From Rhizobacter sp. OV335 (GTDB lineage Bacteria > Pseudomonadota > Gammaproteobacteria > Burkholderiales > Burkholderiaceae_C), in contig NZ_FRCQ01000044.1 of the NCBI RefSeq assembly GCF_900142965.1, forward strand, positions 1 to 38,558: DNA of 38,558 nucleotides, in the 5' to 3' direction. The notes beneath the pieces are model-generated. The model was not told where the DNA came from and ran no database searches. It was given only the letters and a program-made list of their open reading frames with translations. The translations under genes were made by a program, and so were the position numbers. Each line of letters starts with the position of its first letter. Positions within the stretch are counted from its first letter, which is position 1. This document shows positions 17,844 through 38,449 of this stretch, in pieces.

Positions 17844-17890
17844 GTGCGCGATGCCGCAAGGTGCGCGGTGGTGCAGGCGGCATTCCGCAC
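17844..17890. promoter_or_regulatory. Tandem 16-bp dyads, proposed activator sites (virB8)
   Basis: GTGCG-N6-CGCAA (17844-17859) and AGGCG-N6-CGCAC (17875-17890) start exactly 31 bp apart. The same paired arrangement lies upstream of the three other sigma-54 promoters here. The pair sits in the divergent gap and could also serve the activator gene at 17974. The second site is the weakest of the eight. Confidence 0.65.
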
Positions 17891-17918
17891 GGACCCGCAA
17901 CGCGGCGTTCGAGGCACC

Positions 17919-17934
17919 CTACGAGTTCTCGTAG
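17919..17934. promoter_or_regulatory. Palindrome before the activator gene
   Basis: CTACGAG-TT-CTCGTAG has perfect 7-bp arms and lies 40 bp before the start of the sigma-54 activator gene. It is a possible operator for that gene. It does not resemble the GTGCG-N6-CGCAC dyads, so a different regulator would be expected. Confidence 0.5.
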
Positions 17935-17973
17935 CTTGCGCGCCGCCCGCAAATCACTACGCTGGACCCCATC

Positions 17974-19377
17974 ATGAAAGTCGCATTGCTTCACTTGTTC
18001 GGCAGCACCCGCGCACAACTCGCGGCCCATTTGCGTGACGGTGGCCTCGACGTGCACGCGGTGTCCAACGCGGAGGACCTGCTGACGCTGATCGCGTCGG
18101 GCGCGGCCGGCGTGGTGGTCACCGACCTACGCCTGCCCGGCGTGCACGAAGGCATGGAGCTGCTGTCGCAGTGCCATGCGATGGACCCGCAGCTCACCGT
18201 GATCGCATTGAGCGACCAGGAAGACACCGCCACCGCGGTCGAGGCGGTGCACCGCGGTGCGCGCGACGTGCTCGCCCCTGACAGGCTGCCGCGCCTGGCC
18301 ACCGCGTGCCGGCAGGCGATCCGCTCGCGCGAACTCACGCTGCAGACGCGCGCGGCCGAGTCGCTGCACGACGGCGAGCTGGCGCCGGTACGAAGAGGCA
18401 TCGTGCCGATCCACGAGGTGCTGCGCGGCAACCACCCGGCGGTGGGCAAGCTGCGCCAGGCGCTGCTGCGGCTCTCGCGCGTCGACACCGACGTGCTGGT
18501 GAAGGCCGAGACCGGGTGCGGCAAGGAGGTGGTCGCGCGCTGCCTGCACGACTACGGGCCGCGCGCCGACAAGCGCTTCGTCGCGATCAACTGCGGCGCG
18601 ATCCCCGAGAACATCTTCGAGAGCGAGCTGTTCGGCCACGAGGCGGGTGCCTTCACCGGTGCGACCAAGCGTCGCATCGGCAAGCTCGAGTACGCGGCCG
18701 GCGGCACGGTGTTCCTCGACGAGATCGAGAGCATGCCGATGGCGATGCAGGTGAAGCTGCTGCGGGCGCTGCAGCAGCGCACGATCGAGCGCGTCGGCGG
18801 CAACGAGCCGATCCGGCTGAGCTGCCGCGTGGTCGCCGCGACCAAGGACGACCTGCTGGAGCTGTCGCGTGCCGGGCGCTTCCGCATCGACCTGTACTAC
18901 CGGATCAACGTGATCGAGCTGTCGCTTCCGCCGCTGCGCGAGCGGCGCGACGACATCCCGCTGCTCGCGCATGCGTTCGCGCTGGAGGCGGCAGAACACC
19001 ACGGGCTGAGCGATGCCGACCTCGACATCGAGTTCGTCTGCCGGTTGATGGTGCGCGACTGGCCGGGCAATGTGCGCGAACTGCGCAATGCGGTGGAGCG
19101 GCATGTGCTGGGCATGCCCGAGCTGGCGGGGGGCGACGACGCGCCGCAGCAGTCGCTGCCGCAGCTGGTGGCGTCGTTCGAGCGCACGGTGATCGAGCAG
19201 TGCTTGCGCATGTGCGGCGGCTCGGTGACGCGGGCCTGCGAGATTCTCCATGTGCCGCGCAAGACGCTGTACGACAAGCTGACGCGCTTCAGCGTGGACC
19301 CGCAGGATTACCGCGGTGACGGGCCGGCGGCGTCGGGGTTCATGCCGATGACGCAGAGCGATTTCGCTGCCGTATAG
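17974..19377 (+). CDS. Sigma-54-dependent activator (NtrC class) with degenerate receiver
   Basis: A 467-aa bacterial enhancer-binding protein. Residues 1 to about 120 form a receiver-like domain. The phospho-acceptor Asp is kept (VVVTDLRLPGV, Asp51), but the acidic pocket after strand 1 is lost (MKVALLHLFGS) and the conserved Lys near residue 105 is replaced (RDVLAPDRL). The AAA+ domain is complete: AETGCGKE Walker A (178-185), ELFGHEAGAFTGA with the GAFTGA sigma-54 loop (225-230), GGTVFLDEIE Walker B, and FRIDLYYRINVIELSLPPLRER. A Fis-type helix-turn-helix is at the end (GSVTRACEILHVPRKTLYDKL). It is divergent from virB8 and the obvious candidate to drive the four sigma-54 promoters in the window. 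Confidence 0.92.
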   Translation: MKVALLHLFGSTRAQLAAHLRDGGLDVHAVSNAEDLLTLIASGAAGVVVTDLRLPGVHEGMELLSQCHAMDPQLTVIALSDQEDTATAVEAVHRGARDVLAPDRLPRLATACRQAIRSRELTLQTRAAESLHDGELAPVRRGIVPIHEVLRGNHPAVGKLRQALLRLSRVDTDVLVKAETGCGKEVVARCLHDYGPRADKRFVAINCGAIPENIFESELFGHEAGAFTGATKRRIGKLEYAAGGTVFLDEIESMPMAMQVKLLRALQQRTIERVGGNEPIRLSCRVVAATKDDLLELSRAGRFRIDLYYRINVIELSLPPLRERRDDIPLLAHAFALEAAEHHGLSDADLDIEFVCRLMVRDWPGNVRELRNAVERHVLGMPELAGGDDAPQQSLPQLVASFERTVIEQCLRMCGGSVTRACEILHVPRKTLYDKLTRFSVDPQDYRGDGPAASGFMPMTQSDFAAV

Positions 19378-19431
19378 GCCCGAGTCTGGCGTCGAGCGGG
19401 CCGAGCGCCGGGCCGCCCCAAGCCGGCCCGC

Positions 19432-19446
19432 GTCCCCTCGGGGGAC
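19432..19446. terminator. Short GC hairpin between convergent genes
   Basis: GTCCCC-TCG-GGGGAC forms a 6-bp stem with a 3-nt loop in the 99-bp gap between the convergent activator and sigma-factor genes. There is no T-run on either strand. It could be a weak bidirectional terminator or part of a GC-rich intergenic repeat. Confidence 0.35.
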
Positions 19447-19476
19447 CGACCGGCGTACTCGCCGGGCGAGGGGTCG

Positions 19477-20259
19477 TCATGTCGCCAACGCAACGTCCCT
19501 CGTCACCCCCGCGCTCTCCAGCGCCTCGCGCAGCGTCTGCAGCGCCGACACCTGCAGCTGCCGGATCCGCTCGCGCGTCACCCCGCGTTCGCTGCTGAGC
19601 TGCTGCAGCGTGCATTCATCGCCGCCGTCGAGCCCGAAGCGCGCGACGATGATGTCGCGCTGGCGTTCCGGCAACTGCGCCACCTGCGCGCGCAGCAGCT
19701 CGGCCAGGCGCGGTGCGTCGCGCTGCTCGGCCACCTCGTCGGCCACGTCGCGTTCGCTGAAGCCGGCGTCCGACAGCTGCTGCTCGACGTCCTCGTCGTC
19801 CATCGGCACCGGCGTGACCGGCACCGCGTCGTGCGACATCTGCAGCCGCAGCGGCGGCCGCACGATCGGCACCTGCATCGCGAGCGCCGTCTGCAGATGG
19901 TGGCGGATCCAGAAGCCCGCATAGGTCGAGAAGCGCAGCCCGCGCGCGCTCTCGAACTTCTGCAGCGCGACCAGCATGCCGACATTGCCTTCCTCGATCA
20001 GGTCCAGCAGCTCCAGCCCGCGGTTCGAGAAGCCACGTGCCATCGAGATCACGAAGCCGAGGTGGTGGCAGATCAGCGCGTCGCGCGCGTCGTCGTCGCC
20101 GCGGTCGATGCCGGCCAGCAGCTCCGACTCGTGCTGCGGCAGCAGCCGCGCGAAGCGGCGCACTTCGCGCATGTAGAGCGTCATCAGCGTCGGCAGCGCC
20201 GCATCGCGGCGCGCCGACGGCTCGGATGGCTCAGCGCGCGGTGGCGGGCTTGCGCTCAT
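19477..20259 (-). CDS. Sigma-70 family alternative sigma factor
   Basis: A 260-aa sigma factor of RpoS/RpoH-like architecture. Region 2 is clear (LICHHLGFVISMARGF, LELLDLIEEGNVGMLVALQKF, RGLRFSTYAGFWIRHHLQ), with a short, acidic and divergent region 3. Region 4 is also present (LPERQRDIIVARFGL, CTLQQLSSERGVTRERIRQLQ with its helix-turn-helix). There is no region 1.1 and no RpoH box. The start at 20259 lies inside the lipoprotein frame (29-bp overlap); an in-frame alternative is at 20283. As the last gene of a short sigma-54-driven operon with a PilL-like protein, it may be a second regulatory tier for the secretion system. Its target promoters are unknown. Confidence 0.87.
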   Translation of the reverse strand: MSASPPPRAEPSEPSARRDAALPTLMTLYMREVRRFARLLPQHESELLAGIDRGDDDARDALICHHLGFVISMARGFSNRGLELLDLIEEGNVGMLVALQKFESARGLRFSTYAGFWIRHHLQTALAMQVPIVRPPLRLQMSHDAVPVTPVPMDDEDVEQQLSDAGFSERDVADEVAEQRDAPRLAELLRAQVAQLPERQRDIIVARFGLDGGDECTLQQLSSERGVTRERIRQLQVSALQTLREALESAGVTRDVALAT

Positions 20260-20407
20260 CGGTGCTGGTGAGCGCGTCGGCACCCAGGTCGCGCTCGACG
20301 ATGCGCGGGTTCGAGGTGGAGCGGCCGCCGTGCGGCGGCGTCGCGGCGCAGGCCGCCAGCAGCCAGGGCAGCAGCAGCACCAGGCATCGGGTGGTGGTGA
20401 GTCTCAT
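20231..20407 (-). CDS. 58-aa lipoprotein, VirB7 candidate
   Basis: A very small gene. The product starts MRLTTTRCLVLLLPWLLAAC, a short basic N region, a hydrophobic core and a lipobox LLAAC with the lipidated Cys at residue 20. About 38 polar residues follow (AATPPHGGRSTSNPRIVERD and on), ending at TGA 20231. The start overlaps the stop of the PilL-like gene (ATGA at 20404-20407). VirB7 proteins are outer-membrane lipoproteins of about this size that vary greatly in sequence, and no other VirB7 is seen near virB8-virB10. The lipoprotein call is firm; the VirB7 role is inferred from size and T4SS context. Confidence 0.75.
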   Translation of the reverse strand: MRLTTTRCLVLLLPWLLAACAATPPHGGRSTSNPRIVERDLGADALTSTDERKPATAR

Positions 20408-20856
20408 CGCATCTCCTTCGCGTCATCGGGCAGGCGTTCCACCGCGACCAGCCGGTTCACGTGATCGACGACCAGCCGGTTGTCCTCGCCGATCAGCAGC
20501 AGCAGCGCCTGCTCGATGCTCATCACGCCGGCATGCGCGGCGATCGCCGGGATGCGACGCTGCAGCACCGCGGCGCTGTCGACCGGGTCGACGGTGCGGT
20601 AGGTGATGCGGTACTGCACCGGCTCCAGCAGCGACTTGATCGCATCGCCGACGGTGCCGCTGCGCGGGTCGAACTCGACCAGCGTGCCGACCTTCAGGCG
20701 ATAGGCGCTGCCGGGGGGGGCTCCGGCAGCGAGCACCGGCTGCGGCAGCATCGCGAGCAGCAGCAGCGCGCACACCAGGCCGACCACGCACCAGCGCAGC
20801 AGCGCGGTGAGTTGCGGCGAGCGCGCGAGCGGGTGAAAGCGCAGGGGAAGTTTCAT
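20404..20856 (-). CDS. PilL-like (PFGI-1-class) periplasmic protein
   Basis: A 150-aa exported protein. A basic N terminus and hydrophobic segment (LLRWCVVGLVCALLLLAMLPQPVLA) act as signal peptide or anchor. The mature part (TVGDAIKSLLEPVQYRITY ... AAVLQRRIPAIAAHAGVMSIEQALLLLIGEDNRLVVDHVNRLVAVERL) follows the pattern of PilL proteins of PFGI-1-type integrative elements: an xxDAxxxLLxxxxYRI helix, a P-A-I/V segment, a second xxxxALxxLxG helix and a final VNRLVxxxR strand. ATG 20856 has AAGGAG 5 nt upstream, which excludes a GTG at 20862. It heads an operon with the lipoprotein and sigma factor, behind a perfect sigma-54 element. Confidence 0.68.
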   Translation of the reverse strand: MKLPLRFHPLARSPQLTALLRWCVVGLVCALLLLAMLPQPVLAAGAPPGSAYRLKVGTLVEFDPRSGTVGDAIKSLLEPVQYRITYRTVDPVDSAAVLQRRIPAIAAHAGVMSIEQALLLLIGEDNRLVVDHVNRLVAVERLPDDAKEMR

Positions 20857-20886
20857 CGTCACTCCTTGCAGTGGCGCCTGTCATGC

Positions 20887-20901
20887 GCAATGGCCGTGCC
20901 A
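20887..20901 (-). promoter_or_regulatory. Sigma-54 promoter of the PilL-like operon
   Basis: On the - strand TGGCAC-GGCCA-TTGC matches the -24/-12 consensus at all ten defined positions, including the G after TGGCAC. The -12 GC lies about 31 nt before the ATG at 20856, with AAGGAG between. It is the strongest sigma-54 element in the window. Confidence 0.88.
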
Positions 20902-20943
20902 TCGCTCTGCATGCCGAGCGCCCGGGCAAAGCGGTGCAGCGTT

Positions 20944-20990
20944 GTGCGGCACGCCGCGCTCGGTGCCGTCACGCGTGCGCCGTGCCGCAC
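20944..20990. promoter_or_regulatory. Tandem 16-bp dyads, proposed activator sites (PilL-like operon)
   Basis: GTGCG-N6-CGCGC (20944-20959) and GTGCG-N6-CGCAC (20975-20990) are spaced exactly 31 bp. They lie 43 bp upstream of the -24 element. The second dyad is a perfect copy of the shared motif. Confidence 0.72.
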
Positions 20991-21007
20991 ATCGATCGGC
21001 GCTTGCG

Positions 21008-21268
21008 TCACGGCTCGACGGGGGCTTCGACGTTGCGCTGCAACTGCGCGACCGCATGCCGCGTCACCGCATCGGCGAGGCCCTCGGTCTCGAGCGCGCG
21101 GGCCAGCATCGCGCCGATCACCACCGAGAGATCGGGGCGCATCTGCAGCTGCTTCTGCACCTGCACGCGGACCTTCAAGGTGGCCTGGAAGAGTTCTTCG
21201 GGAACGGGGACCCAGCGCATCGCGTCGCGCCGCGCGGCAGGGGTGGAGGAGGGTGGCGTGGATGTCAT
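21008..21268 (-). CDS. 86-aa protein, unknown
   Basis: A small charged protein without signal peptide. A Ser/Thr/Pro-rich start is followed by MRWVPVPEELFQATLKVRVQVQKQL, RPDLSVVIGAMLARALETEG and a C-terminal helix. The strand-helix-helix order and the DLSVVIGAMLARALE stretch would fit a ribbon-helix-helix DNA-binding protein, but this is weak. ATG 21268 has GAGGA 8 nt upstream and is preferred over 21376. It is not clearly in the PilL-like operon: 151 bp, holding that operon's own promoter, separate them. Homologues next to T4SS genes would decide whether it is an accessory factor. Confidence 0.55.
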   Translation of the reverse strand: MTSTPPSSTPAARRDAMRWVPVPEELFQATLKVRVQVQKQLQMRPDLSVVIGAMLARALETEGLADAVTRHAVAQLQRNVEAPVEP

Positions 21269-21305
21269 GTGGGTGTTCCTCGCGGTGGTGGACCGGTTTT
21301 CCGGT

Positions 21306-21320
21306 GCAAGCCCCGGGCCG
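21306..21320 (-). promoter_or_regulatory. Weak sigma-54-like element before the 86-aa gene
   Basis: CGGCCC-N5-TTGC (then A) on the - strand keeps GG and GC at the right spacing, 38 nt before the 86-aa start, as at the other sites. It misses two of ten positions and has no convincing GTGCG-N6-CGCAC pair upstream. Confidence 0.35.
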
Positions 21321-21321
21321 G

Positions 21322-21361
21322 CCTTGACAAGCGCGCGGGCCGCCCTAGAACCAGCAGGCGA
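21322..21361 (+). promoter_or_regulatory. Promoter P1 of the DMT-transporter gene
   Basis: TTGACA (21324-21329), a 16-bp spacer and TAGAAC (21346-21351), followed by CAGC. Aligned without gaps, this 40-bp segment is nearly the same as 22658-22697 before the ATP-grasp gene, including bases outside the -35 and -10. The leader to the start is about 95 nt. Confidence 0.72.
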
Positions 21362-21410
21362 TTCCGCACGCGTCAATATGCGGAGGTGACCGCACCTCAG
21401 CGGGATCTGC

Positions 21411-21431
21411 GCATCCGGAAGCTCCGGATGC
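21411..21431 (+). promoter_or_regulatory. Leader hairpin before the DMT-transporter start
   Basis: GCATCCGG-AAGCT-CCGGATGC forms a perfect 8-bp stem with a 5-nt loop. It ends 9 nt before the AGGAGG ribosome-binding site. An ATG at 21428 is buried in the stem, which speaks against its use as the start. A role in translation control is possible. Confidence 0.5.
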
Positions 21432-21454
21432 CTGACATGGAGGAGGTGGCAGTC

Positions 21455-22510
21455 TTGAGCGGACTGCGGGAGTACGCCAGACCGATGTTCTGGTTCGTCC
21501 TGTATTGCCTGGGCGTCCAGTGCGTGCAGTCGTCCAGCCGGGCGATCGCGGTGCTGGGGTTGGCGACGGCCGCGACGGTGCTGTCCGTTCGCTTCCAGGG
21601 CGTTTTCCTGGGAGCGTGGGTGACGGCAGTCGTCCAGGCCGTCCGCGACCGGTCACTCGACGTGTTCCGTCCGCGCTACCTGTTCAACCGGGTGGGGCAG
21701 GCGATCACGCAGACCGGCCAGACCGTCTGCATCCTGTTCGCATCGATGCAGATGTCGGGGCAGTTGCAGTCGGCCATCTCGATGGCCGTGGTTCCGGTAT
21801 GGACGCTGCTGGTCGGCGGGGTGCTGTCCCTGCTCGGCAAGCGGCCGCGGATCGACGGCGCGGCGTGGATCGCACCCGCGATGTACGCCGTGTCCGCCAA
21901 CATGTTCGCGATTCAGGCGCCGAAGACCGAAGGGTCGGTGGCGCTCGGCTTCGCGTTCATGCTGGGTAGCGGGCTGTGCACGACGCTGCTTCACTACCTG
22001 ACCGAGGACGTGGCCAGGAAGGATGAGCTGCGCAACAAGCTGCGCGACCTGAAACTGCGCATCGTGACCACTGCGAACGATGCGCCGGTTCGGGAAAGCA
22101 AGATCACCACGACGCTGTGGCAGAACGGACCGGCAGCTTTGCTGACCGTGCCGTTGTGGTTCATCGCGGTGCCGGGCTTGTCTCTGGATCGGGCAACCGT
22201 TCCGGCGACCTGGCTCGGTGTCACGCTCGTCGTGAGCGTGGCGGTGTTCTCGCTCGGGCAGCAGTTGGCGACGCAACTCGCCTACATCTCGAGCGAGGGG
22301 ACCGATCTGAGCGTCGCGCGGCTGAATACGCTGCGCGGCGTGCAGGTGATCTTCGCTGCCATCCTGGACGTCGTGCTGTTCCAGGTGCTGCCGGGACGGA
22401 TCCAGTGGAGCGCGCTCGCGCTCGTTCCGCTGACGATCGCGGTCGGCTGGCTTCTCACCACCAGCAAGAAGGCCGAAGACGGTTCGACGGGTTCTGCCAC
22501 GTCGGCCTGA
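21455..22510 (+). CDS. DMT/EamA-like multi-pass membrane transporter
   Basis: A 351-aa integral membrane protein with about ten hydrophobic helices, including FWFVLYCLGVQCVQ, AIAVLGLATAATVLSV, SMAVVPVWTLLVGGVLSLL and ALVPLTIAVGWLLTT. The layout, with a late helix pair near RGVQVIFAAILDVVLFQVLPG, is like the drug/metabolite transporter superfamily. An unusual cytoplasmic loop (LTEDVARKDELRNKLRDLKLRI) lies in the middle. The TTG at 21455 is chosen as start: a full AGGAGG (21441-21446) sits 8 nt upstream, while in-frame ATGs at 21428 and 21437 lie in a hairpin or before that site. It pairs with the ATP-grasp gene, which has a near-identical promoter, so export of that enzyme's product is a reasonable inference. 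Confidence 0.75.
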   Translation: MSGLREYARPMFWFVLYCLGVQCVQSSSRAIAVLGLATAATVLSVRFQGVFLGAWVTAVVQAVRDRSLDVFRPRYLFNRVGQAITQTGQTVCILFASMQMSGQLQSAISMAVVPVWTLLVGGVLSLLGKRPRIDGAAWIAPAMYAVSANMFAIQAPKTEGSVALGFAFMLGSGLCTTLLHYLTEDVARKDELRNKLRDLKLRIVTTANDAPVRESKITTTLWQNGPAALLTVPLWFIAVPGLSLDRATVPATWLGVTLVVSVAVFSLGQQLATQLAYISSEGTDLSVARLNTLRGVQVIFAAILDVVLFQVLPGRIQWSALALVPLTIAVGWLLTTSKKAEDGSTGSATSA

Positions 22511-22657
22511 CACGGATGCGATGCGGTCGCGCAGGGTGGATGATTTCTGCCCTGCGCGCCGCATCGTGATGAACGGAAGCGTCGGTTCGATCCAGCAGCT
22601 TTGCTGCTTGATCAACCGGCGCTTCTTCCTTTTCCGGACGCTCATTTGAACGTGCGC

Positions 22658-22697
22658 CCTTGACAGCGTCGGTGCCTGCCCTACACCCAGCGGGCGA
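22658..22697 (+). promoter_or_regulatory. Promoter P2 of the ATP-grasp gene
   Basis: TTGACA (22660-22665), a 16-bp spacer and TACACC (22682-22687), then CAGC. It matches P1 (21322-21361) over 40 bp with no gaps. The leader to the ATG at 22776 is about 85 nt and contains a small ACCCC-GTCT-GGGGT hairpin. The rest of the 265-bp gap holds two short GC hairpins (22529-22557; 22594-22608) without T-runs. Confidence 0.72.
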
Positions 22698-22775
22698 ACC
22701 CCGTCTGGGGTGAGCATGGTTGGAGCGACGGCCGCCCTCTGGGTGGTTGCCGCTTCACGGACGAGAAGAGGCAAG

Positions 22776-23885: not shown

Positions 23886-23923
23886 CTCCGCGGTTCACCA
23901 CGCTCCATCACGTCCGCACCAAG

Positions 23924-23965
23924 ACCGGGGGACAGTGCTTCTGCACTGTCTCCCGGTTTCCTTTT
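23924..23965 (+). terminator. Rho-independent terminator
   Basis: A 15-bp stem (ACCGGGGGACAGTGC paired with GCACTGTCTCCCGGT, one G-T pair) with a 4-nt loop is followed by TTCCTTTT. It lies 39 nt after the ATP-grasp stop. It is the clearest intrinsic terminator in the window and closes the DMT/ATP-grasp cassette. Confidence 0.88.
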
Positions 23966-24021
23966 GGGGCCGCGATTCCGGGAAAATCCTGAGTGAATGA
24001 AACGATTTACAAACGACTTAT

Positions 24022-24037
24022 TGAATGTCATCATTCA
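24022..24037. promoter_or_regulatory. Candidate operator at the RpiR-type regulator start
   Basis: TGAATG-TCAT-CATTCA is an inverted repeat with perfect 6-bp arms just before the regulator's ATG at 24041. A further TGAATGA lies at 23994-24000 in the same AT-rich patch. The placement suggests autoregulation of this operon. Confidence 0.55.
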
Positions 24038-24040
24038 TTC

Positions 24041-26004: not shown

Positions 26005-26011
26005 GGTCGCG

Positions 26012-27175: not shown

Positions 27176-27176
27176 G

Positions 27177-28244: not shown

Positions 28245-28249
28245 AACTG

Positions 28250-28993: not shown

Positions 28994-28995
28994 GC

Positions 28996-29985: not shown

Positions 29986-30777
29986 TCACTTTTCCTTCGG
30001 GAACTTGCAGCACAGCGGCCAGATCTGCGTCGGGTCATCCGAGCGGCAGGTGCACATGTCCGCCGGGTCGCCGATCAGGCTTCCGCCGTTGGTGTCCATC
30101 GGCCGGTCGTCCCACGGGAAGTTGTCCGGGTCCCACGCATCGCTCGGCGTGTCGGTCCAGGGCATGTTGGCCGCCAGGTTGTCCTCGGCATGCAGGAAGC
30201 CGCAGCCGCAGCTGGTCTTCACGTTGGCGATCGTCGAGCGCTCGCTGCGCATGTTCTGCTGCGCGATCTGGATCGACGACGGGTTGTAGACCTTGGTGAC
30301 GATCGACACGTGCCCATGCTCCCCGCTCGCGCCGCACATGCCGCGGCCGAACACGAAGATGTCGCCCGGCACCGGCGTGCCCTGGCCCGGCTTGAAGCGC
30401 GACACGCCCTGCGGCAGGTTGAAGGTGCACAGGTCGGCCGCCGACGGCACCACCAGCCGCTTGTGGAAACGGAAGATGTAGTAGCGCTGCGGGAACTCGG
30501 TGCACTGGTAGCCGAAGCCGCTGTTCGTCATCGTGCGGTTGTTGAACGGGTTGCTGGTGTAGGTGTCGTGCCCGTTGGTGCTGAAGATCGGGTTGCCGTA
30601 GCAGTGCTCCTTGTTGAAGATCGGGAACCCGGTCGAATCGGTGAAGTCGGTGAAGCCACCGCGCTGGCCGTCGATGTAGGCCGACGGCGGGGCGCCGCAG
30701 GCGAAGGCCGAAGCGAACTGCGGCAGCGCGGCCAGCGCCAGGACGCGAGCGAAGCGGTGGACAAGCGGAAGCGCCAT
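29986..30777 (-). CDS. Secreted CHAP-domain amidase/peptidase, likely VirB1 substitute
   Basis: A 263-aa exported protein with a signal peptide (LALAALPQFASAFA, cleavage near residue 26) and a CHAP cysteine-peptidase domain. Cys92 is in FGYQCTEFPQRYYIFRF, His156 in SGEHGHVSIVTKV, and the third residue is probably Asn175 in IAQQNMRS. The rest is Cys-rich (CGCG, CTC, CC), suggesting disulfides in the periplasm. CHAP enzymes cut peptidoglycan cross-links or amide bonds. No VirB1-type lytic transglycosylase is present, so this enzyme probably opens the cell wall for the T4SS. ATG 30777 has AGGAG 5 nt upstream. It has its own sigma-54 element 40 nt before the start. Confidence 0.82.
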   Translation of the reverse strand: MALPLVHRFARVLALAALPQFASAFACGAPPSAYIDGQRGGFTDFTDSTGFPIFNKEHCYGNPIFSTNGHDTYTSNPFNNRTMTNSGFGYQCTEFPQRYYIFRFHKRLVVPSAADLCTFNLPQGVSRFKPGQGTPVPGDIFVFGRGMCGASGEHGHVSIVTKVYNPSSIQIAQQNMRSERSTIANVKTSCGCGFLHAEDNLAANMPWTDTPSDAWDPDNFPWDDRPMDTNGGSLIGDPADMCTCRSDDPTQIWPLCCKFPKEK

Positions 30778-30816
30778 GGGATCTCCTGTGAGCGGTCGTC
30801 GATGCCGGAAGCAGTT

Positions 30817-30831
30817 GCCAGCCGCGTGCCA
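30817..30831 (-). promoter_or_regulatory. Sigma-54 promoter of the CHAP gene
   Basis: On the - strand TGGCAC-GCGGC-TGGC (then A) matches 9 of 10 consensus positions, with correct GG-GC spacing. It lies about 40 nt before the CHAP start in the 160-bp gap after the virB6-like gene. An IHF site and a dyad pair lie upstream. Confidence 0.8.
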
Positions 30832-30883: not shown

Positions 30884-30930
30884 GTGCGGCTTGGCGCACT
30901 CGCTGGGCGCGCCTGGGCGGCGGCCCGCAC
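30884..30930. promoter_or_regulatory. Tandem 16-bp dyads, proposed activator sites (CHAP gene)
   Basis: GTGCG-N6-CGCAC (30884-30899, perfect) and GGGCG-N6-CGCAC (30915-30930, one mismatch) start 31 bp apart. They lie 53 bp upstream of the -24 element and end 8 bp short of the upstream gene's stop. Confidence 0.72.
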
Positions 30931-30937
30931 GGCCGCG

Positions 30938-31912
30938 TCAGCGTCCGCCGGCAGATCGTGCGGCCGAGCGCGCCACATCCTGCAGCAGCCCACCGGTGCC
31001 CGACATCCCCGCCACCACCGAGGTCGCGAAGCGCCCGGTGCAGGCCATCGCCAGCATGCCGAGCACCAGGAACAGGAACAGCGCGATCAGGTCGTACGGG
31101 CCGTGCACGTCGATGGTCGCGCCCATCGAACCGGTCGCGGCGGCACTCATCGAACGGAAGCCGAGCAGCACCATCGACAGCGTCACCTTCGCGATCAGGT
31201 CGTACATCATCACGTTGAAGAACAGCTTCAGCCAGCCGTCGAACAGGAACGACAGACGGCGGAACAGCAGGAACGGGATCGCGAACCAGCCGACGCCGAA
31301 CGCGATCTCGAAGCACCACTGCATCCACAGCTCCACCACCGTCGCGATCGCGCCGAGCAGCAGGATGCCCAGGCTCGCGACCATGGTCGTGAAGATCGCG
31401 TACGCGCGGTTCGTGATGCAGTCCATCAGCCCGTCGCACACCGGGTGCAGGCTCAGCTGCAGCACGGTCGTGAAGATCTCCTCGGCGAGCGTGCGGTCGG
31501 TGCCGATGCCGGCGATGCTGCCGCCCAGGTGGTCGCCGATGAAGCGCGTGGCCGCGGCGATCGCCGGCATCAGCCCGCGGTAGCCGGTCAGCAGCAGGTA
31601 GACGAAGCCGACGGTGAAGGTCAGTTCCAGCAGGTCGACGATGTCGAAGCCGCGCAGCGCGAAGCCGATGAACTTCCAGGCGAACAGGAACAGCGACAGC
31701 GACGCGAACAGCACGTGCACCACCATGCCGATGCTGGCAGAGGTGAGGGCGGCCGACACGTGCGCCGTCATCGCGTCGTTGGCCTCGCGCAGCGTGACGA
31801 AGATGTCGTGCAGCCACGGCATGTCCGCCGGCGGCGCGGCGTGGGCCGGCAGCACGGCGCACAGCAGCAGCGGCACCAGCAGCCGTGCTGCGCTTCGAGC
31901 CGAGGGGTTCAC
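30938..31912 (-). CDS. VirB6/TrbL-like inner-membrane protein, copy C
   Basis: A 324-aa polytopic protein of the VirB6 type, forming the inner-membrane arch of the channel. It starts with a Sec-like signal peptide (VNPSARSAARLLVPLLLCAVLPAHA). A short periplasmic stretch (MPWLHDIFVTLREANDAM) and at least six hydrophobic segments follow. It shares FRRLSFLFDGWLKLFF and the C-terminal TGRFATSVV with the two upstream copies. The GTG start at 31912 is set by a GTGA overlap with the preceding stop. A Gly/Ser-rich cytoplasmic tail ends the protein. It is the last of three tandem copies. Confidence 0.82.
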   Translation of the reverse strand: MNPSARSAARLLVPLLLCAVLPAHAAPPADMPWLHDIFVTLREANDAMTAHVSAALTSASIGMVVHVLFASLSLFLFAWKFIGFALRGFDIVDLLELTFTVGFVYLLLTGYRGLMPAIAAATRFIGDHLGGSIAGIGTDRTLAEEIFTTVLQLSLHPVCDGLMDCITNRAYAIFTTMVASLGILLLGAIATVVELWMQWCFEIAFGVGWFAIPFLLFRRLSFLFDGWLKLFFNVMMYDLIAKVTLSMVLLGFRSMSAAATGSMGATIDVHGPYDLIALFLFLVLGMLAMACTGRFATSVVAGMSGTGGLLQDVARSAARSAGGR

Positions 31913-32916
31913 CTCGTCACCCAGCGCGTCACGGTGCGCGCCATCTGCCCGAAGTTGATGCCACCGGCCGCCGCGCCCGCGACGATCGCGCTCGCGAAGC
32001 GGCCGGTCGCCAGCAGCGTGAAGATGCCGACCCCGGCGAACAGCATCAGCCCCAGCACCTGGGTCACGTCGTCGATCGGCGCGAGCGTCGGCGGCGTGAA
32101 GCCACCGCCGCTCAGCGCCGCGGCGGTCGAGCCCCAGTAGGTCATCAGCGCCACCACCACCAGCGCGAGGTTGACGCGCGCGAGGATCAGGTAGATGACC
32201 GCGCCGAAGAAGAATCGCAGCCAGCCTTCGAACAGGAACGACAGCCGCCGGTACAGCGTGAACGGCAGCAGCACCGGCCCGGTCGCGAGCGCGATGCCGT
32301 ACAGCCAGAAGCCCCACACGTCGACCAGCATCACCGCGACGCACAGCCCGGCCAGCAGCAGCGAGATCGCGAGCGCCGCGACGATCTGCACCGCGCCGCC
32401 ACGCACGCAGTCGAGGATGTTCAGCGGGTTCCACCCGAGGTGGCAGTTCGGCGAGATCTGCATGCCGTAGGTGACGAGCATGTCGACCAGCGAGGCCGGT
32501 GTCGCGACCGCCGCCGCGGTGCCGCCCCCCAGCCCCATGATGCCGGCCAGCAGCGCCGCGCCGACGAACAGCGCCGCGTTGAAGATGGCCGGCACCACGG
32601 TCGTGAACATGCTCAGCATCAGCCCGGTGAACATGATCTGCACCGCGGTCTCGACCATCTCGCCGAGCTTGAAGCCGCGCAGCGCCCACGAGGTGCACTT
32701 CAGCACGAACAGCGCCAGCGCCAGCACGAAGAACAGCCGCGTGGCGACGTAGTGCATCGCGCCGCCCGAGACGACGGCACTGACGCGGTCGACGATCGCA
32801 TCCTCGAACTGGCCGATGCGCTTGAAGGCATCGTTCAGCGCCGCATGCGCGAGCGGCGTCGCCACCAGCAGCGCGAGCGCGGCCAGCTTCTGCGCACCTT
32901 TCAGCGCGACCGTCAC
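31909..32916 (-). CDS. VirB6/TrbL-like inner-membrane protein, copy B
   Basis: A 335-aa paralogue of the neighbouring genes. The signal peptide is VTVALKGAQKLAALALLVATPLAHA, followed by ALNDAFKRIGQFEDAIVDRV and multiple TM segments. It carries the shared YRRLSFLFEGWLRFFF motif and C-terminal TGRFASAIV. It is the most divergent copy, with an extra Gly-rich hydrophobic segment (IMGLGGGTAAAVATP) and a periplasmic Cys-containing loop (SPNCHLGWNPLNILDCV). GTG start by GTGA overlap at 32913-32916. Confidence 0.82.
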   Translation of the reverse strand: MTVALKGAQKLAALALLVATPLAHAALNDAFKRIGQFEDAIVDRVSAVVSGGAMHYVATRLFFVLALALFVLKCTSWALRGFKLGEMVETAVQIMFTGLMLSMFTTVVPAIFNAALFVGAALLAGIMGLGGGTAAAVATPASLVDMLVTYGMQISPNCHLGWNPLNILDCVRGGAVQIVAALAISLLLAGLCVAVMLVDVWGFWLYGIALATGPVLLPFTLYRRLSFLFEGWLRFFFGAVIYLILARVNLALVVVALMTYWGSTAAALSGGGFTPPTLAPIDDVTQVLGLMLFAGVGIFTLLATGRFASAIVAGAAAGGINFGQMARTVTRWVTR

Positions 32917-33908
32917 AGCGCCACCGCCATCGCCGCCCCGGCCGCGGTGGCCGCGGCGCTCGCCGCCCGCTGCACCACCTCGCCGACGCCGCCGCCGGCC
33001 GCGTTCTGCACGATGGCCGACGCGAAGCGGCCGGTGCTGTAGAGCGTCGCGATGCCCACCGCGAGGAACACCAGCATGCCGACGATCGAGAAGAAGCCGT
33101 CGACGTCGACCGTCTGCGAGGCGGGGATGCCGCCGCCGTGCGCGATGCCGAACATGATCTCCAGCCCGAGCAGCACCAGCGCGAGGTTGACCTTGGCGAC
33201 CATCACGTAGACCACCATGCCGAAGAAGAACTTGAGCCAGCCGTCGAACAGGAACGACAGCCGCTCGAACAGCAGGAAGGGCACCGTGAGCCAGCCGATC
33301 GCATAGGCGATCTGGAAGCCCCACATCGTCCACAGCTCGACCAGCGTCGCGATGATGCCGAGCGCGATCACGATGATGTACGCGAAGATCGCCGCGATCC
33401 ACGACATGACCCCGGGCCCGAGGCAGTCGAACAGGTCGCACGACGAATGGAAGTCGACCTGCACCACCATGCCGAAGATGTTCTCGGCCAGGCTGACCTT
33501 CGGGTCGCGCCCGGAAATGCCGGCCCCGAGCACGTCGGACACGTAGCGGCCGGCGCCGAAGATGGCCGGGAAGATCGCCTTGTACGCGCTCAGGATCAGG
33601 TAGACGAAGAACAGCGTCATCATCAGCGCCATCATGTCCAGCAGGTCGAAGCCGCGCAGCGCGTAGCCGCTGAACTTCCAGACGAACAGCCCGAGCGCGA
33701 GCGCCGAGAACAGCACGTTGACGACCATCTCGATCTCGTGCGTGCCGAGCGCGTCGCCGATCTTCTGCGTGATCTGCTCGGTGACGCTGTCGAACACCAG
33801 GAACACCTCGTGCAGCGCCGGCAGCGACGCGGCGTGTGCCGGCAGCGCCCAGCCGGCGAGCAGCAGCGCGCCGACGATGCCGAGCGCCGCGCGCTCAGAG
33901 CGCCGCAT
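32913..33908 (-). CDS. VirB6/TrbL-like inner-membrane protein, copy A
   Basis: A 331-aa polytopic protein, the first of three tandem copies. Signal peptide MRRSERAALGIVGALLLAGWALPAHA, then SLPALHEVFLVFDSVTEQI, six or more hydrophobic segments, the shared motif FERLSFLFDGWLKFFF, and the C-terminal STGRFASAIV. Two Cys in a periplasmic loop (SSCDLFDCLGPG) match the loop Cys of the other copies (PVCDGLMDCI; PNCHLGWNPLNILDCV), so a conserved disulfide is likely. The start overlaps the end of the VirB5-like gene by 14 bp. Confidence 0.84.
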   Translation of the reverse strand: MRRSERAALGIVGALLLAGWALPAHAASLPALHEVFLVFDSVTEQITQKIGDALGTHEIEMVVNVLFSALALGLFVWKFSGYALRGFDLLDMMALMMTLFFVYLILSAYKAIFPAIFGAGRYVSDVLGAGISGRDPKVSLAENIFGMVVQVDFHSSCDLFDCLGPGVMSWIAAIFAYIIVIALGIIATLVELWTMWGFQIAYAIGWLTVPFLLFERLSFLFDGWLKFFFGMVVYVMVAKVNLALVLLGLEIMFGIAHGGGIPASQTVDVDGFFSIVGMLVFLAVGIATLYSTGRFASAIVQNAAGGGVGEVVQRAASAAATAAGAAMAVAL

Positions 33909-35022
33909 GGCCGGGCGCCCGTTCCACCGCGTCGGCCAGGCGGCGCATCTCGGCGCCGGTTTGCAGCAACTGCGCCTGCAGCTGGCGGCCGTAGCGCAGC
34001 GCGGCGTCCTTCACCGACTCCTCGCGCGCCAGCACGTCGAGCAGCGCGAGCGCCAGCGTGTCGCGCCCGAGCTGCGCGGCCTGGCGCTGCGGCTCGTCGC
34101 CGACCACCTGGCCGGCGGCGATGCGGCGCTTCAGGTCGTCGGCCAACGCCGAGGCGGCGGCGCGCGACGCGAGCGCGCTGCGCGGCATCGACATCGGCGC
34201 GGCACCGCCGCTGAAATCGGGCCCGCCGAGCTGCATCAGCGCCTGCGTCTGCTGTGCCTGCACGCCGGCGAGCGTGCCGCGCAGCGCGGCGAGCTGGGCC
34301 GATTCGGCGGCGTCGGACAACGGCACCGAGGTCGCGGCCTGCATCAGCCCGTCGAGCGCACCCAGCCGCTGCGCGCTGGCCTGGCCGGCGCGCCGCAGGT
34401 CGAGCAGCGTGCGGCTTTCTTCGTCGGCACGCCGGCTCAGCGTCGCGATGCTGGCCTGCATCGTGTCGTTGAGCGACGCCGCACGCGGCTGGCCGGCGTT
34501 CGCGAGCTCGACGCGGCGCGCCAGCAGCCGCAGCGTGTCGGGCTGGAACAGCGGCAGCACCGCGAACGACGGCGCACCGGCCGGCACGTTGCGCGCCGAT
34601 TCGGCCCAGCGCGCGAGCTGCACCGATGCGCGCGGGTCGATCGCCTCGTTCGGGCCGCGCGGCGGGTCGACCTGCGCCAGCCCGGCCGACACCATCAGGC
34701 TCGCAAGATCGCTGACCGGCAGCTCGCGCACGCCGGCCAGCAACTGGCCGAACGCATCGCGCTGCTGTGCGGCCGTCATGCCGGCGGCGCCGTTCGCGGC
34801 GGCGGCGCGGCGTGGTGCCGCCTTCGGGCTGCCGGCCTGCGAGGCGGCGTAGTTCTCCAGCAGTTCCAGCACCTCCTGCCAGCCCTGCGGATCCTGCTCG
34901 AAGGCCTGCGGCGGCAGGCGCTCGATCTCGCGCACCAGGTCGTCGATCTCCGGATCGCCGGCCGCGCGTGCCCACGCACAGCAGCCGAGCATCGCGGCCA
35001 CGAACAGCAGCCGAGGCACCAT
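33895..35022 (-). CDS. Secreted helical protein, VirB5-like candidate
   Basis: A 375-aa exported protein with a signal peptide (MVPRLLFVAAMLGCCAWARA) followed by largely alpha-helical, Ala/Arg/Gln-rich sequence with coiled-coil character (LNDTMQASIATLSRRADEES; DAALRYGRQLQAQLLQTGAEM). VirB5 proteins are periplasmic, helical pilus-tip components encoded between virB4 and virB6, exactly this position, but usually about 220 aa; this one is considerably longer and I see no diagnostic motif. Its ATG shares one base with the virB4 stop (TGATG). The role is inferred from position and export signal. Confidence 0.65.
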   Translation of the reverse strand: MVPRLLFVAAMLGCCAWARAAGDPEIDDLVREIERLPPQAFEQDPQGWQEVLELLENYAASQAGSPKAAPRRAAAANGAAGMTAAQQRDAFGQLLAGVRELPVSDLASLMVSAGLAQVDPPRGPNEAIDPRASVQLARWAESARNVPAGAPSFAVLPLFQPDTLRLLARRVELANAGQPRAASLNDTMQASIATLSRRADEESRTLLDLRRAGQASAQRLGALDGLMQAATSVPLSDAAESAQLAALRGTLAGVQAQQTQALMQLGGPDFSGGAAPMSMPRSALASRAAASALADDLKRRIAAGQVVGDEPQRQAAQLGRDTLALALLDVLAREESVKDAALRYGRQLQAQLLQTGAEMRRLADAVERAPGHAAL

Positions 35023-37556
35023 CACAGGATCCCCTCTTCCTTGAAGCGGGCGAGCGTCAGCTGCATGCCGCGCTGGTAGCCGTGCTCCTCGATCAACGCG
35101 GTGCGGATCGCCGCCTCGCGCGGGTGCGAGGTGTTCATCACGTACTGCTCCGGCTCCACCACCAGGTTGACGATCTTCGCGACGCCCAGTTCCTGCTGCA
35201 CCAGGAAGGCCTGGCGCTTCGGGATCAGCGAGCGGATCGCCTCGCATTCGCCCGCCTGCAGGAACGGGAAGGTCTCGCGGTACAGCGCGTCGTCCATCTT
35301 CGGGTCGGACATGAAGACGAAGGTGCTGGCCGCGCTGCGCACCGCGGCCCAGCTGTCGCTGCGCAGCAGTTCCTCGGGCGACTGCGTCCACAGCTGCACG
35401 CCGGCGCCCCACTTGCCCCAGGTGCGCACCTTGGCCACCAGGTACTCGGCGAACGACTTCAGCCGCAGCGCGTGGTGGCATTCGTCGACGTGCAGTTCCT
35501 TCGGAATGCCGCGCCTGGCCGGGTCCTCGAAGGTGCGGGTGATGCGGTAGAACAGCTCGAGCAGCAGCGGGCGCATCGCGTTCTCGTCGTCGCGCACCGC
35601 CTGCAGGTTGTAGACGCCGACGCGCTTGTCCAGCCCGCCGGCCGAGTCGACGGTGGCGCCGAACAGCGGCGCGTAGCGGCCGGCCATCTGCGGGTCGGTG
35701 CCGCGCGTCCAGCGGGTGAACTTCTGCGCCAGCTGCATCGGCATGTGGGCCACCAGCGAATCGAGCGTGCGCATCGAGGTCGGCAGCAGCAGCGTCTTGC
35801 GGATCGCGCCGTCCAGGTACTCCTGCTCGTTGTGCGCGAGCTGCTGCAGCAGCGGGTCATCGTTGGCCCGCATCATTTCGACCAGCAGCTCGGTCATGTG
35901 CACGACGAAGCCGATGTCGTGCGCGCCCTGGTAGTTGACGAACGGGTTCAGCCCGTGGCGGCCGTCGGCGGTGACGCGGAAGATGCCGCCGTCATCGCCG
36001 AAGGCCTGCGCCAGCGTCTCGGTGCCGGGGTCGATGTCGATCGCGCGGATCACGCCGCCGTACTTCAGGAAGTGCGTCGCCAGCGTGTTCTTCAGGAAGG
36101 TCTTGCCGCTGCGGATCGGGCCGATCCCGACCAGCATCGCGCGCCCGCCGATGAAGTTGCTGAAGAAGAACGGCCGGCCGTCGCGGCTCTCGAGCACGTA
36201 CTGCGCCTCCTCGCCGCCCAGGTCCTCGACGCAGGGCTGGCCGAGGGCGCTCTGGTACAGCAGCGCGGCCGCCGCGCTCTGCGTGCCGTTGAGCACCATG
36301 TCGCGCATGCTCTTGTGCTGGCCGCCGGGCTGCATGGTCTGGTACGCGTAGGGCAGGTCGACGCCTTCCCACACCAGCGAGAGGCCGACGTTGGAGCAGG
36401 CGCGGTCGAGCGACAGCACGGTCTCGCGCAACTGCACCGGGTCGGGGTGGAAGGCGGCGACGAAGCTGTGGCCCTGGCCCCAGGTCTCGTCGAGCGCCTC
36501 GGCCTCGCCGAGCTCGGCGATCTTGTCGGCGATGGCGGGTTTCATCGTCGCCTGCTTCTCGTACAGCGAGCGCTCGCGGCCCTGCAGCACGTCCCACGGG
36601 CTGATCGCGCTGCGTTCCAGCTCGGTCTGCTTGTTGCGGAACAGCATCGAGCGCTTGAACTCGCTGAACGGCGTGAAGCGGTGCATCAGCAAATAGTTGC
36701 CGCGCAGCCGCGCCGGCGAGTCGTCGCCATGGCCCCACAGCCCTTCGCGCACCGGGCTGCCGAGCCGGCTGACGGCGCCGATCTTCACGTACTGGTGCTC
36801 GGCGTCGTCGATCTTCAGCACGTCCATGTTGTGCACGCGCAGGTGGCGCACGTCGCCGCTCGACAGGAAGTGGTCCCAGTTGCTCTCGGGCGGCGTCTCA
36901 TGGCGCGCGGTGTCGAGGCGGCGCGGCTGCAGCGTCGCGAGGAAGCGCATGTGCGCCCACAGCTCGTCGATGCCGAGCTGCTCGACGCCCATGATCCCGG
37001 ACCACTTGGCCACCAGCACCGACAGCGCGTCCTTCAGCATCCACGACTGGCGCTCCAGTTGCTCGGCGAGGTAGAGCAGCGCGCCGTCCTTGCCGAGCGT
37101 CTGCTTCACCATGCGGCGGCTCGAGCTGCTGATGGGTGCCATCGCCAGGTGCTTGACGAGGCCGGCGACGTCGAGCTTGTTGGAGTTCTCGCCCGCCTGC
37201 ACCTCGAAGTAGTGCACCAGGCGCGAGTTGCACAGGTCGCGGCCGTTCAGGAAGGCCTCGCGCTGCTTCGACATCAGGTCGCTGATCGGGTGCTCGCGGC
37301 GCAGCAGCGAGACCTTGGCGCCCTCGAAGTGCGCGAAGTACTGCGTGACCGCGATCGCCTTCGGCAGCGCGCCGTAGATCACGCGGGCGATGTGCGTCAT
37401 GCCCTGGTGGTCGATGGCGGCCATGCCGTCGGGGTCGCGCCCCGACAGCTCGATCGCCCCGATCAGCGAGCCGGTCTTGGTGAGCACGAAGCCGTTGTAC
37501 ACACCGTAGGCGGTGTGCAGGTCCAGCACCGAGCCGATCTTGTCCCTGGCACCCAT
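35022..37556 (-). CDS. virB4: T4SS ATPase VirB4
   Basis: An 844-aa ATPase, the largest T4SS energy component. The N-terminal domain (DLHTAYGVYNGFVLTKTGSL ... GMTHIARVIYGALP) is of the CagE/TrbE/VirB4 type. The C-terminal RecA-like domain has Walker A GPIRSGKT (residues 479-486), RAIDIDPGTETLAQAF, and Walker B LHVDECHHAL (Asp691, Glu692). Further on is GAGVQLWTQSPEELLRS. All nucleotide-binding parts are present. The start at 37556 is 21 nt after the virB2-like stop; the end overlaps the VirB5-like start. It is a normal-length, apparently functional gene. Confidence 0.95.
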   Translation of the reverse strand: MGARDKIGSVLDLHTAYGVYNGFVLTKTGSLIGAIELSGRDPDGMAAIDHQGMTHIARVIYGALPKAIAVTQYFAHFEGAKVSLLRREHPISDLMSKQREAFLNGRDLCNSRLVHYFEVQAGENSNKLDVAGLVKHLAMAPISSSSRRMVKQTLGKDGALLYLAEQLERQSWMLKDALSVLVAKWSGIMGVEQLGIDELWAHMRFLATLQPRRLDTARHETPPESNWDHFLSSGDVRHLRVHNMDVLKIDDAEHQYVKIGAVSRLGSPVREGLWGHGDDSPARLRGNYLLMHRFTPFSEFKRSMLFRNKQTELERSAISPWDVLQGRERSLYEKQATMKPAIADKIAELGEAEALDETWGQGHSFVAAFHPDPVQLRETVLSLDRACSNVGLSLVWEGVDLPYAYQTMQPGGQHKSMRDMVLNGTQSAAAALLYQSALGQPCVEDLGGEEAQYVLESRDGRPFFFSNFIGGRAMLVGIGPIRSGKTFLKNTLATHFLKYGGVIRAIDIDPGTETLAQAFGDDGGIFRVTADGRHGLNPFVNYQGAHDIGFVVHMTELLVEMMRANDDPLLQQLAHNEQEYLDGAIRKTLLLPTSMRTLDSLVAHMPMQLAQKFTRWTRGTDPQMAGRYAPLFGATVDSAGGLDKRVGVYNLQAVRDDENAMRPLLLELFYRITRTFEDPARRGIPKELHVDECHHALRLKSFAEYLVAKVRTWGKWGAGVQLWTQSPEELLRSDSWAAVRSAASTFVFMSDPKMDDALYRETFPFLQAGECEAIRSLIPKRQAFLVQQELGVAKIVNLVVEPEQYVMNTSHPREAAIRTALIEEHGYQRGMQLTLARFKEEGIL

Positions 37557-37577
37557 GGCCGGTCGCGTCCGTGGGGG

Positions 37578-37907
37578 TCAGAGCGTGATGTTGCCGGCGC
37601 CGCCGAACTGTGCGATCCACAGTGCGGCGTTCATGATCGCGATGCCGGCGACCACCACCCGCAGCACCGGGCCGAAGATGCCGTCCTTGGGGGCGAACAC
37701 CCAGGTGCAGAAGGCCGCGACGATCGAGACCACGACGACTGCCTTGCCGAACGGCCCGGTCATGAAGTTCGCGAAGGCCTGCAGGAAGGTGCGCAGGCTG
37801 TCGAAGTTGGCGGCGGTGGCCTGCGCGTGGGCGGAGGCGCTGAGCAGGGACAGCAGCACGCCGGACAGTGGGGCGGCGGCACGCCGCGCGAGGAATTGAA
37901 CACGCAT
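37578..37907 (-). CDS. virB2: VirB2-like pilin
   Basis: A 109-aa small membrane protein: a long signal peptide (MRVQFLARRAAAPLSGVLLSLLSASAHA), a short polar stretch, then two hydrophobic helices (GKAVVVVSIVAAFCTWVFA; VLRVVVAGIAIMNAALWIAQF) separated by PKDGIFGP. This is the classical layout of VirB2/TrbC pilins, the subunits of the T4SS pilus. AGGAG lies 8 nt before ATG 37907. It follows virB3 rather than preceding it as in Agrobacterium. Confidence 0.85.
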   Translation of the reverse strand: MRVQFLARRAAAPLSGVLLSLLSASAHAQATAANFDSLRTFLQAFANFMTGPFGKAVVVVSIVAAFCTWVFAPKDGIFGPVLRVVVAGIAIMNAALWIAQFGGAGNITL

Positions 37908-37927
37908 GGAAGGCACTCCTGTGGTTT

Positions 37928-38239
37928 TCACTTGTTGAAGGGGACGATGACGACGCGCCGCGGGTTGCGCGCACAGGCCGACCAGCGGACCGGGCGGCCC
38001 ACGGAGCGCTGCCAGGCGAGCAGCGCGCGTGGGTCGTCGTTGTAGATCGCGAACAGCACGCCGAACAGCAGGCCGCCCATCGCGAACGCGAAGACGAACG
38101 GGATCTGCGTGAGCATCGCGACCGTCAGCACTGCCGCGCCGATGAACTGCTTGCTGGGGATGCCCCAGATCGTGTTCTCCCGCGCGAAGATCTTCACCTC
38201 CTGCAGGCTGCGGTCGGTCTTCGCTGTCTTCTCTGCCAT
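37928..38239 (-). CDS. virB3: VirB3-like T4SS inner-membrane protein
   Basis: A 103-aa protein: a polar N terminus (KIFARENTIWGIPSKQFIGA, with the family's short motif around the first helix) and one or two adjacent TM segments (AAVLTVAMLTQIPFVFAFAMGGLLFGVLF). A cytoplasmic end carries the YNDDPRALLAW pattern common in VirB3/TrbD. It is the first gene of block B; a sigma-54-like element lies 38 nt before its ATG. GGAG lies upstream at a slightly long distance. Confidence 0.88.
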   Translation of the reverse strand: MAEKTAKTDRSLQEVKIFARENTIWGIPSKQFIGAAVLTVAMLTQIPFVFAFAMGGLLFGVLFAIYNDDPRALLAWQRSVGRPVRWSACARNPRRVVIVPFNK

Positions 38240-38276
38240 GGCGTGTTGCTCCGGGGGTCAGGCCACGTGAGCTATC

Positions 38277-38291
38277 GCGAGAGGCATGCCA
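38277..38291 (-). promoter_or_regulatory. Sigma-54-like promoter of the virB3 operon
   Basis: On the - strand TGGCAT-GCCTC-TCGC matches 8 of 10 consensus positions and keeps the invariant GG and GC at the correct distance, 38 nt before virB3. Alone it would be marginal. The IHF site and the dyad pair upstream make it convincing. Confidence 0.68.
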
Positions 38292-38330
38292 TGGCGACCG
38301 GTGGCCGGATTGGCTGACGGCGATGCGCCG

Positions 38331-38343
38331 CAAGCCCTTGATT
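38331..38343 (-). promoter_or_regulatory. IHF consensus site upstream of virB3
   Basis: The - strand reads AATCAA-GGGC-TTG, a full match to WATCAANNNNTTR. It lies between the sigma-54 element and the dyad pair. Flanking bases (TTTG on the + strand) are also shared with the site at 30846-30858. Confidence 0.68.
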
Positions 38344-38402
38344 TGTCTTGTGAATCGCGCAGACGGCAGGTGGTCCACGGCGTGGATGCGGGGGTCATCG
38401 AC

Positions 38403-38449
38403 GTGCAGCACTTCGCACTGCCTCGCCGCGCGCGTGCGGACGCCCGCAC
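38403..38449. promoter_or_regulatory. Tandem 16-bp dyads, proposed activator sites (virB3)
   Basis: GTGCA-N6-CGCAC (38403-38418, one mismatch) and GTGCG-N6-CGCAC (38434-38449, perfect, extended to CGCGTGCGG-N4-CCGCACGCG) are 31 bp apart. They lie 112 bp upstream of the -24 element. Confidence 0.74.

Follow-up and report, generated by a model that had tools for sequence, protein, structure and literature searches.

At glnA, two NtrC dimer sites placed about three helical turns apart form a paired enhancer that drives a sigma-54 promoter. In Sinorhizobium (Rhizobium) meliloti, DctD reportedly occupies tandem binding sites at dctA, in work ascribed to Ledebur and Nixon in 1992 and to Scholl and Nixon in 1996. 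A related arrangement occurs on contig NZ_FRCQ01000044.1 of Rhizobacter sp. OV335 (assembly GCF_900142965.1), where four pairs of GTGCG-N6-CGCAC dyads precede the gene blocks of a VirB/D4-like type IV secretion system (T4SS) whose locus also holds a gene for a DctD-like activator. The window, meaning the whole stretch of DNA analysed, is this entire contig of 38,558 bp (69% GC, in a genome totalling 6,898,072 bases). We read each 47-bp element as a DctD-type tandem upstream activating sequence (UAS) through which the linked activator would switch on four T4SS blocks together via sigma-54, and we place the probability of this reading at about 0.86.

The DctD site of R. meliloti is given as TGTGCGgnnntCCGCACA in PMC11077940, which places two such sites before dctA. 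The dyad core of the window corresponds to GTGCGG-N4-CCGCAC of this published site, and the 19 elements compared across five genomes (described below) depart from its 12 positions by a mean of 1.5 mismatches in the distal dyad and 1.4 in the proximal one. Since the dyad equals the core of the quoted site, this core can be regarded as the DctD box. In S. meliloti, a perfect dyad copy starts 91 bp before the dctA promoter, and a weaker copy (2 mismatches to GTGCG-N6-CGCAC, 4 of 12 to GTGCGG-N4-CCGCAC) lies 33 bp further upstream; the same combination recurs in all four of the other Sinorhizobium dctA regions viewed. Both systems share the core dyad, its presence in two copies separated by about three helical turns, and a location upstream of a TGGCACG-N4-TTGC promoter. 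They differ in that dctA pairs one perfect with one weak site, whereas the window holds two sites of similar strength at 31 bp, and in that secretion genes are the targets here, no DctB-like kinase is found in the locus, and the receiver of the activator is degenerate. The NtrC enhancer at glnA differs in both dyad sequence and target, and NtrC-type sites were rejected as the identity of the pairs because the dyad is unlike the NtrC consensus.

Vibrio vulnificus DctD2 provides a second point of comparison. According to PMC11077940 and PMC9040800, it is a DctD-type activator that is activated unphosphorylated by dephospho-IIAGlc and can act without phosphate on sites resembling those of R. meliloti DctD. 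DctD2 has an intact receiver and an identified partner, in contrast to the degenerate receiver described here. Tandem-site architecture and the DctD box are therefore known features. What appears new, as judged from sequence, is the T4SS as target, the strict spacing of 31 bp between sites of balanced strength, and an activator whose receiver is probably unable to accept a phosphate. Titles and abstract openings contained no sigma-54-controlled type IV secretion operon, a weak negative given that subscription literature lay mostly outside the search, and a search on Rhizobacter and type IV secretion returned nothing on this locus among the matches listed. Seventeen loci around more distant homologues of the activator were also surveyed, and 31- to 33-bp pairs (at most 4 mismatches of 24) occurred in four of them (L045, L046, L047, and L053), a count made without a control set. 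In L047 and L053, the distance between the pair and a strong sigma-54-like site is about 77 bp.

The sequence-only reading had located eight dyads with an exact 31-bp distance between the starts of each pair and one perfect copy at three of the four promoters. All eight were found where claimed, at 17844/17875, 20944/20975, 30884/30915, and 38403/38434, with 1+2, 1+0, 0+1, and 1+0 mismatches to GTGCG-N6-CGCAC, respectively, the first pair being the exception without a perfect copy. The lone dyad is not enriched (77 matches in the window at up to 2 mismatches, 123 expected), and the signal lies in the pairing: four pairs in the window (at most 3 summed mismatches) have a start-to-start distance of 31 bp, compared with a mean of 0.12 pairs at each other spacing between 16 and 1000 bp. 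This agrees with the claim that GC-rich chance hardly accounts for the spacing. Across the genome, six places hold a 31-bp pair at the same threshold, and four of these, among them all three with a single mismatch, fall within the 38.6-kb window. A reversed control pattern yields seven places genome-wide. The genome-wide total is thus at chance level, and the evidence comes from how the pairs cluster in the window and how closely they match the pattern. Both pairs outside the window are situated within coding open reading frames, and neither has a sigma-54-like site (score at least 13.4 on the scale described below) within 300 bp, so that the genome scan revealed two chance-like pairs away from sigma-54 promoters instead of the many that would have spoken against an enhancer. 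Single-dyad places numbered 82 in the genome scan and 275 for the control; among ten of the 82 that were inspected, none outside the window combined a partner dyad with a sigma-54-like site.

Comparison with related genomes extends this picture. At this locus, the genome is most closely related to Rhizobacter sp. Root1238 and SG703. The locus occurs in genomes G002, G006, G007, and Caldimonas mangrovi, with activator identities of 98%, 97%, 74%, and 77%, respectively; gene order is rearranged in G007, and the Caldimonas locus is split over two contigs. Together with the genome of the window (G000), these constitute the five genomes compared, with 20 elements in all. Entries G431 and G430 repeat G002 and G006 (identical contig places and match scores) and were not counted as extra genomes. 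In the four further genomes the same four genes are preceded by paired elements, and 19 of the 20 elements are spaced at exactly 31 bp. The 15-bp spacer contains no invariant column and none conserved at 90%, and the outermost half sites are the best conserved part of the element. In Caldimonas, the pair still precedes virB8 with the activator gene about 8 kb away, which assigns UAS 1 to virB8.

Coincidence in GC-rich DNA was considered as an explanation of the pairs. It could draw on the lone dyad, which lacks enrichment, and on the genome-wide pair count, which does not exceed that of the control. Applied to the five loci, however, the original pattern returns 19 pairs with the 31-bp distance (4, 4, 4, 4, and 3 by genome), whereas each other spacing between 16 and 500 bp holds 0.58 pairs on average and 6 at most. 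This count, together with the clustering in the window, refutes chance as the source of the pairs and leaves it with next to no probability. A model built from the 19 elements points in the same direction: in the five locus-bearing genomes it recovers only locus elements at E ≤ 7.5e-5, the next match outside the locus having an E of 0.03, and in G003 and G010, two genomes of the same genus without a VirB4 hit, its best match reaches only 0.13. Because the model was trained on these same elements and scored only 150 candidates in each genome, the best from a first look, the spacing count over the five loci is the more independent test. Neither the pair pattern nor the model identified a further target in the genome. 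Accordingly, no dicarboxylate-transport target was found by pattern or model, and the four elements precede secretion genes.

Each of the four pairs in the window is followed, before the next gene, by a -24/-12 sigma-54-like site scoring at least 13.4 on a scale made of our own weights on the sigma-54 consensus (maximum 15.1). Six sites reach this score on the two strands of the window. The -12 halves of the sites at 30831 and 38291 deviate from TTGC. All 20 elements of the five genomes have a sigma-54-like site (the best within about 260 bp), at 64–141 bp from the centre of the proximal dyad. Spacing within the pairs has thus stayed fixed as their distance to the promoter drifted. A different dimeric regulator, for example a repressor, might own dyads of this shape, with sigma-54 activation proceeding through other sequences, and GC-rich dyads of this kind fit many regulators. 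Such an assignment is very improbable in view of the match to the DctD core, the consistent placement of all 20 elements upstream of sigma-54-like sites, and the DctD-like gene in the locus.

The linked gene encodes a protein with intact GAFTGA and Walker motifs and a Fis-type helix-turn-helix (HTH), as found in sigma-54 activators. It shows 45% identity to the protein encoded at the dctA locus of S. meliloti and carries the KT-L/F-YDKL helix also found in DctD. In a phylogenetic tree, it and S. meliloti DctD are split at 99/98 from two other activator groups, which we take to be NtrC and PEP. Among curated models NtrC fits it best, at a score far under the cut-off. The boxes might instead be bound mainly by another DctD-like protein encoded elsewhere, in which case the T4SS would be governed by a conventional pair of kinase and regulator, such as one for C4-dicarboxylates. 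Five other matches to the activator in the genome reach E ≤ 1e-60; the best of them, at C23, is 44% identical, and a kinase-like sequence lies near it. However, the recognition helix differs in the C23 protein, none of the six pair places is near C23, no pair with one mismatch exists elsewhere in the genome, and each of the four further locus-bearing genomes has an orthologue 74–98% identical to the linked activator. We consider control by such a second protein unlikely, and binding by the linked activator remains the preferred reading.

The receiver domain of the activator is still recognised by Pfam but is degenerate in sequence. Phosphorylation of receivers requires an acidic pair, a phospho-accepting Asp, and a conserved Lys. 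The first Asp of the acidic pair and the Lys are absent in all five orthologues, the second Asp of the pair in four of the five, and the phospho-Asp in one (Caldimonas). The activator probably cannot be phosphorylated, judging by these residues. Searches by tblastn with two DctB-like probes (E up to 0.01) found no DctB-like kinase in the window or in 11 fetched locus pieces; the same probes did find kinases in both control loci. A degenerate receiver in a locus where no DctB-like kinase was found makes a protein partner, as for DctD2 of V. vulnificus, or control of activator transcription, the likely input. For the latter, a CTACGAG-N2-CTCGTAG dyad at 17919–17934, which precedes a conserved TACGCT ahead of the activator gene, is a candidate operator of a regulator. 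The dyad is present in all five genomes, with the form TTACGGG-N2-TTCGTAG in G007. A degenerate pattern derived from these copies has no second exact match in G000, G002, G006, and G007, and two further exact matches in Caldimonas, one of them at L069 6882–6897; at one mismatch, the pattern is no commoner than its control. It may constitute the input that controls the activator.

The proposed mechanism begins with two GTGCGG-N4-CCGCAC boxes on the same face of the DNA, three helical turns apart. Two dimers of the linked activator would bind side by side on these boxes, possibly in a cooperative manner, an AAA+ ring would assemble, and the DNA would loop to bring it to sigma-54 polymerase 64–141 bp downstream, which would then open the promoter. 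The four T4SS blocks would be turned on together, one of them also bringing an RpoS-like sigma factor. The input would be a partner protein, or transcriptional control of the activator gene via the 17919 dyad, instead of phosphorylation. An enhancer for two activator dimers had been suggested from the window alone, and the suggestion fits the dyad pairs, the three-turn spacing with an unconserved spacer, the variable promoter distance, the conservation in four further genomes, and the linked GAFTGA activator. A broader scenario, which we advance tentatively and at somewhat less than even odds, is that a regulator of the DctD type, having given up both its kinase and its phosphorylation, turned into a dedicated T4SS master switch. 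In place of a sensor kinase, transcription of its own gene under control of the CTACGAG-N2-CTCGTAG dyad, or else a partner protein, would govern it; it would act on strict 31-bp paired enhancers and launch a second wave through the RpoS-like sigma factor.

Several observations weigh against the tandem DctD-type enhancer as the explanation of the elements, in addition to the home-made promoter scale mentioned above. The outer T of the extended consensus TGTGCG...CGCACA is seldom present, the base before the element being T in 3 of 19 elements and C in 14; the base after it is A in 10 of 19. The rhizobial dctA spacing is 33 bp compared with 31 bp in the window, and that the weaker dctA copy is the published second DctD site is our own identification. 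The twentieth element (Caldimonas, before the homologue of the 20404 gene) is weak, with 17.2 bits and a 32-bp spacing. As G000, G002, and G006 are 97–98% alike in the activator, the five genomes amount to about three independent lineages. The tree that places the activator with S. meliloti DctD carries a long-branch warning. Lastly, the box is a general DctD box, to which another activator of the genome could also bind.

The minus strand of the window carries the VirB/D4-like T4SS in four blocks, each led by a paired element and a sigma-54-like site (Table 1). UAS 4 heads virB3-virB2-virB4, a gene at the virB5 position, and three virB6 genes; UAS 3 the CHAP-domain gene; UAS 2 a PilL2-like small gene and the RpoS-like sigma factor; and UAS 1 virB8-virB9-virB10, two small genes, virB11, and virD4. 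Homologues of VirB2, VirB4, VirB6, VirB8–VirB11, and VirD4 were all found. VirB4 falls under the curated cut-offs of Pfam and NCBIfam, yet it matches TrwK/VirB4 structure chains with an E of 1.9e-8.

Table 1. Positions of the paired elements, putative promoters, and genes of the secretion locus in the window
Feature	Position	Strand	Pfam match or remark
UAS 1, two DctD-type dyads 31 bp apart	17844..17890	-	upstream of virB8 block, between virB8 and activator gene
UAS 2, two DctD-type dyads 31 bp apart	20944..20990	-	upstream of 20404 gene and sigma factor
UAS 3, two DctD-type dyads 31 bp apart	30884..30930	-	upstream of CHAP gene
UAS 4, two DctD-type dyads 31 bp apart	38403..38449	-	upstream of virB3-virB2-virB4-virB6 block
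Sigma-54-like promoter TGGCATCGGTGTTGCG of virB8 block	17727..17742	-	score 13.9 of 15.1
Sigma-54-like promoter TGGCACGGCCATTGCG of 20404 gene	20886..20901	-	score 14.4 of 15.1
Sigma-54-like promoter TGGCACGCGGCTGGCA of CHAP gene	30816..30831	-	score 14.1 of 15.1; imperfect -12
Sigma-54-like promoter TGGCATGCCTCTCGCG of virB3 block	38276..38291	-	score 13.4 of 15.1; imperfect -12
CTACGAG-N2-CTCGTAG dyad	17919..17934	+	proposed operator
DctD-like sigma-54 activator: degenerate receiver, AAA+ with GAFTGA, Fis-type HTH	17974..19377	+	PF00158, PF00072, PF02954; proposed binder of the four UAS
VirB9 (CagX), VirB10 (TrbI), two small genes, VirB11 ATPase (T2SSE), VirD4-like coupling protein	10480..16804	-	no Pfam match for the two small genes
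VirB8	16843..17691	-	PF04335
Sigma-70-family factor	19477..20259	-	best model RpoS, under curated cut-off; likely in UAS 2 unit
Small protein, first gene after UAS 2	20404..20856	-	weak PilL2-like match under curated cut-off
CHAP-domain protein	29986..30777	-	PF05257; putative VirB1-like role
Three tandem VirB6/TrbL proteins	30938..33908	-	PF04610 in each; paralogues, one block
Protein at VirB5 position	33905..35017	-	no family match; VirB5 name by position only
VirB4 ATPase	35022..37556	-	
VirB2 pilin	37578..37907	-	
VirB3-like protein	37928..38239	-	named by position only

This T4SS is rare, its VirB4 being detected at E ≤ 1e-120 in 2 of 399 genomes of the family, this one included, and at E ≤ 1e-80 in 1 of 399 genomes of the order, namely this one. 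The family draw lacked the locus-bearing G006 and G007, so 2 of 399 understates the genus. The GTDB collection holds three loci, two in Rhizobacter and one in Caldimonas mangrovi. The nearest plasmid-borne VirB4 (46% identical) is encoded on a plasmid of Eleftheria terrae, whose system has the same core VirB/D4 genes as the locus in the window. A mobile-plasmid origin of the circuit was considered and set aside, as the 42 kb of that plasmid viewed contain no annotated activator and no 31-bp pair at up to 4 mismatches.

Three further features of the locus deserve mention. The RpoS-like sigma gene is conserved with the locus, at 59–97% identity in the other four genomes. Its presence within the secretion locus suggests a cascade from sigma-54 to a second sigma factor. 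Positions 21008–21268 encode an 86-aa protein without a Pfam match that is kept with the locus in the five genomes (about 51–82% identical) and represents a candidate regulator. Between two secretion blocks, the plus strand (21485–29982) carries two genes without a Pfam match, followed by parts of an amino-acid ABC transporter and an asparaginase-family protein. Relatives of the two unmatched genes sit at the equivalent position in G002 and G006 and were not found in the fetched locus pieces of G007 and Caldimonas.

Taken at its present strength, the analysis predicts from sequence the circuit of a rare secretion system, in which one activator would serve four promoters and no further element was found in the genome. 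An enhancer design familiar from dicarboxylate transport would thereby have been put to use in secretion, apparently with loss of phosphorylation as the input. Moreover, since the 31-bp distance is kept while the surrounding DNA drifts, these loci may serve as a natural test of spacing rigidity in tandem enhancers.

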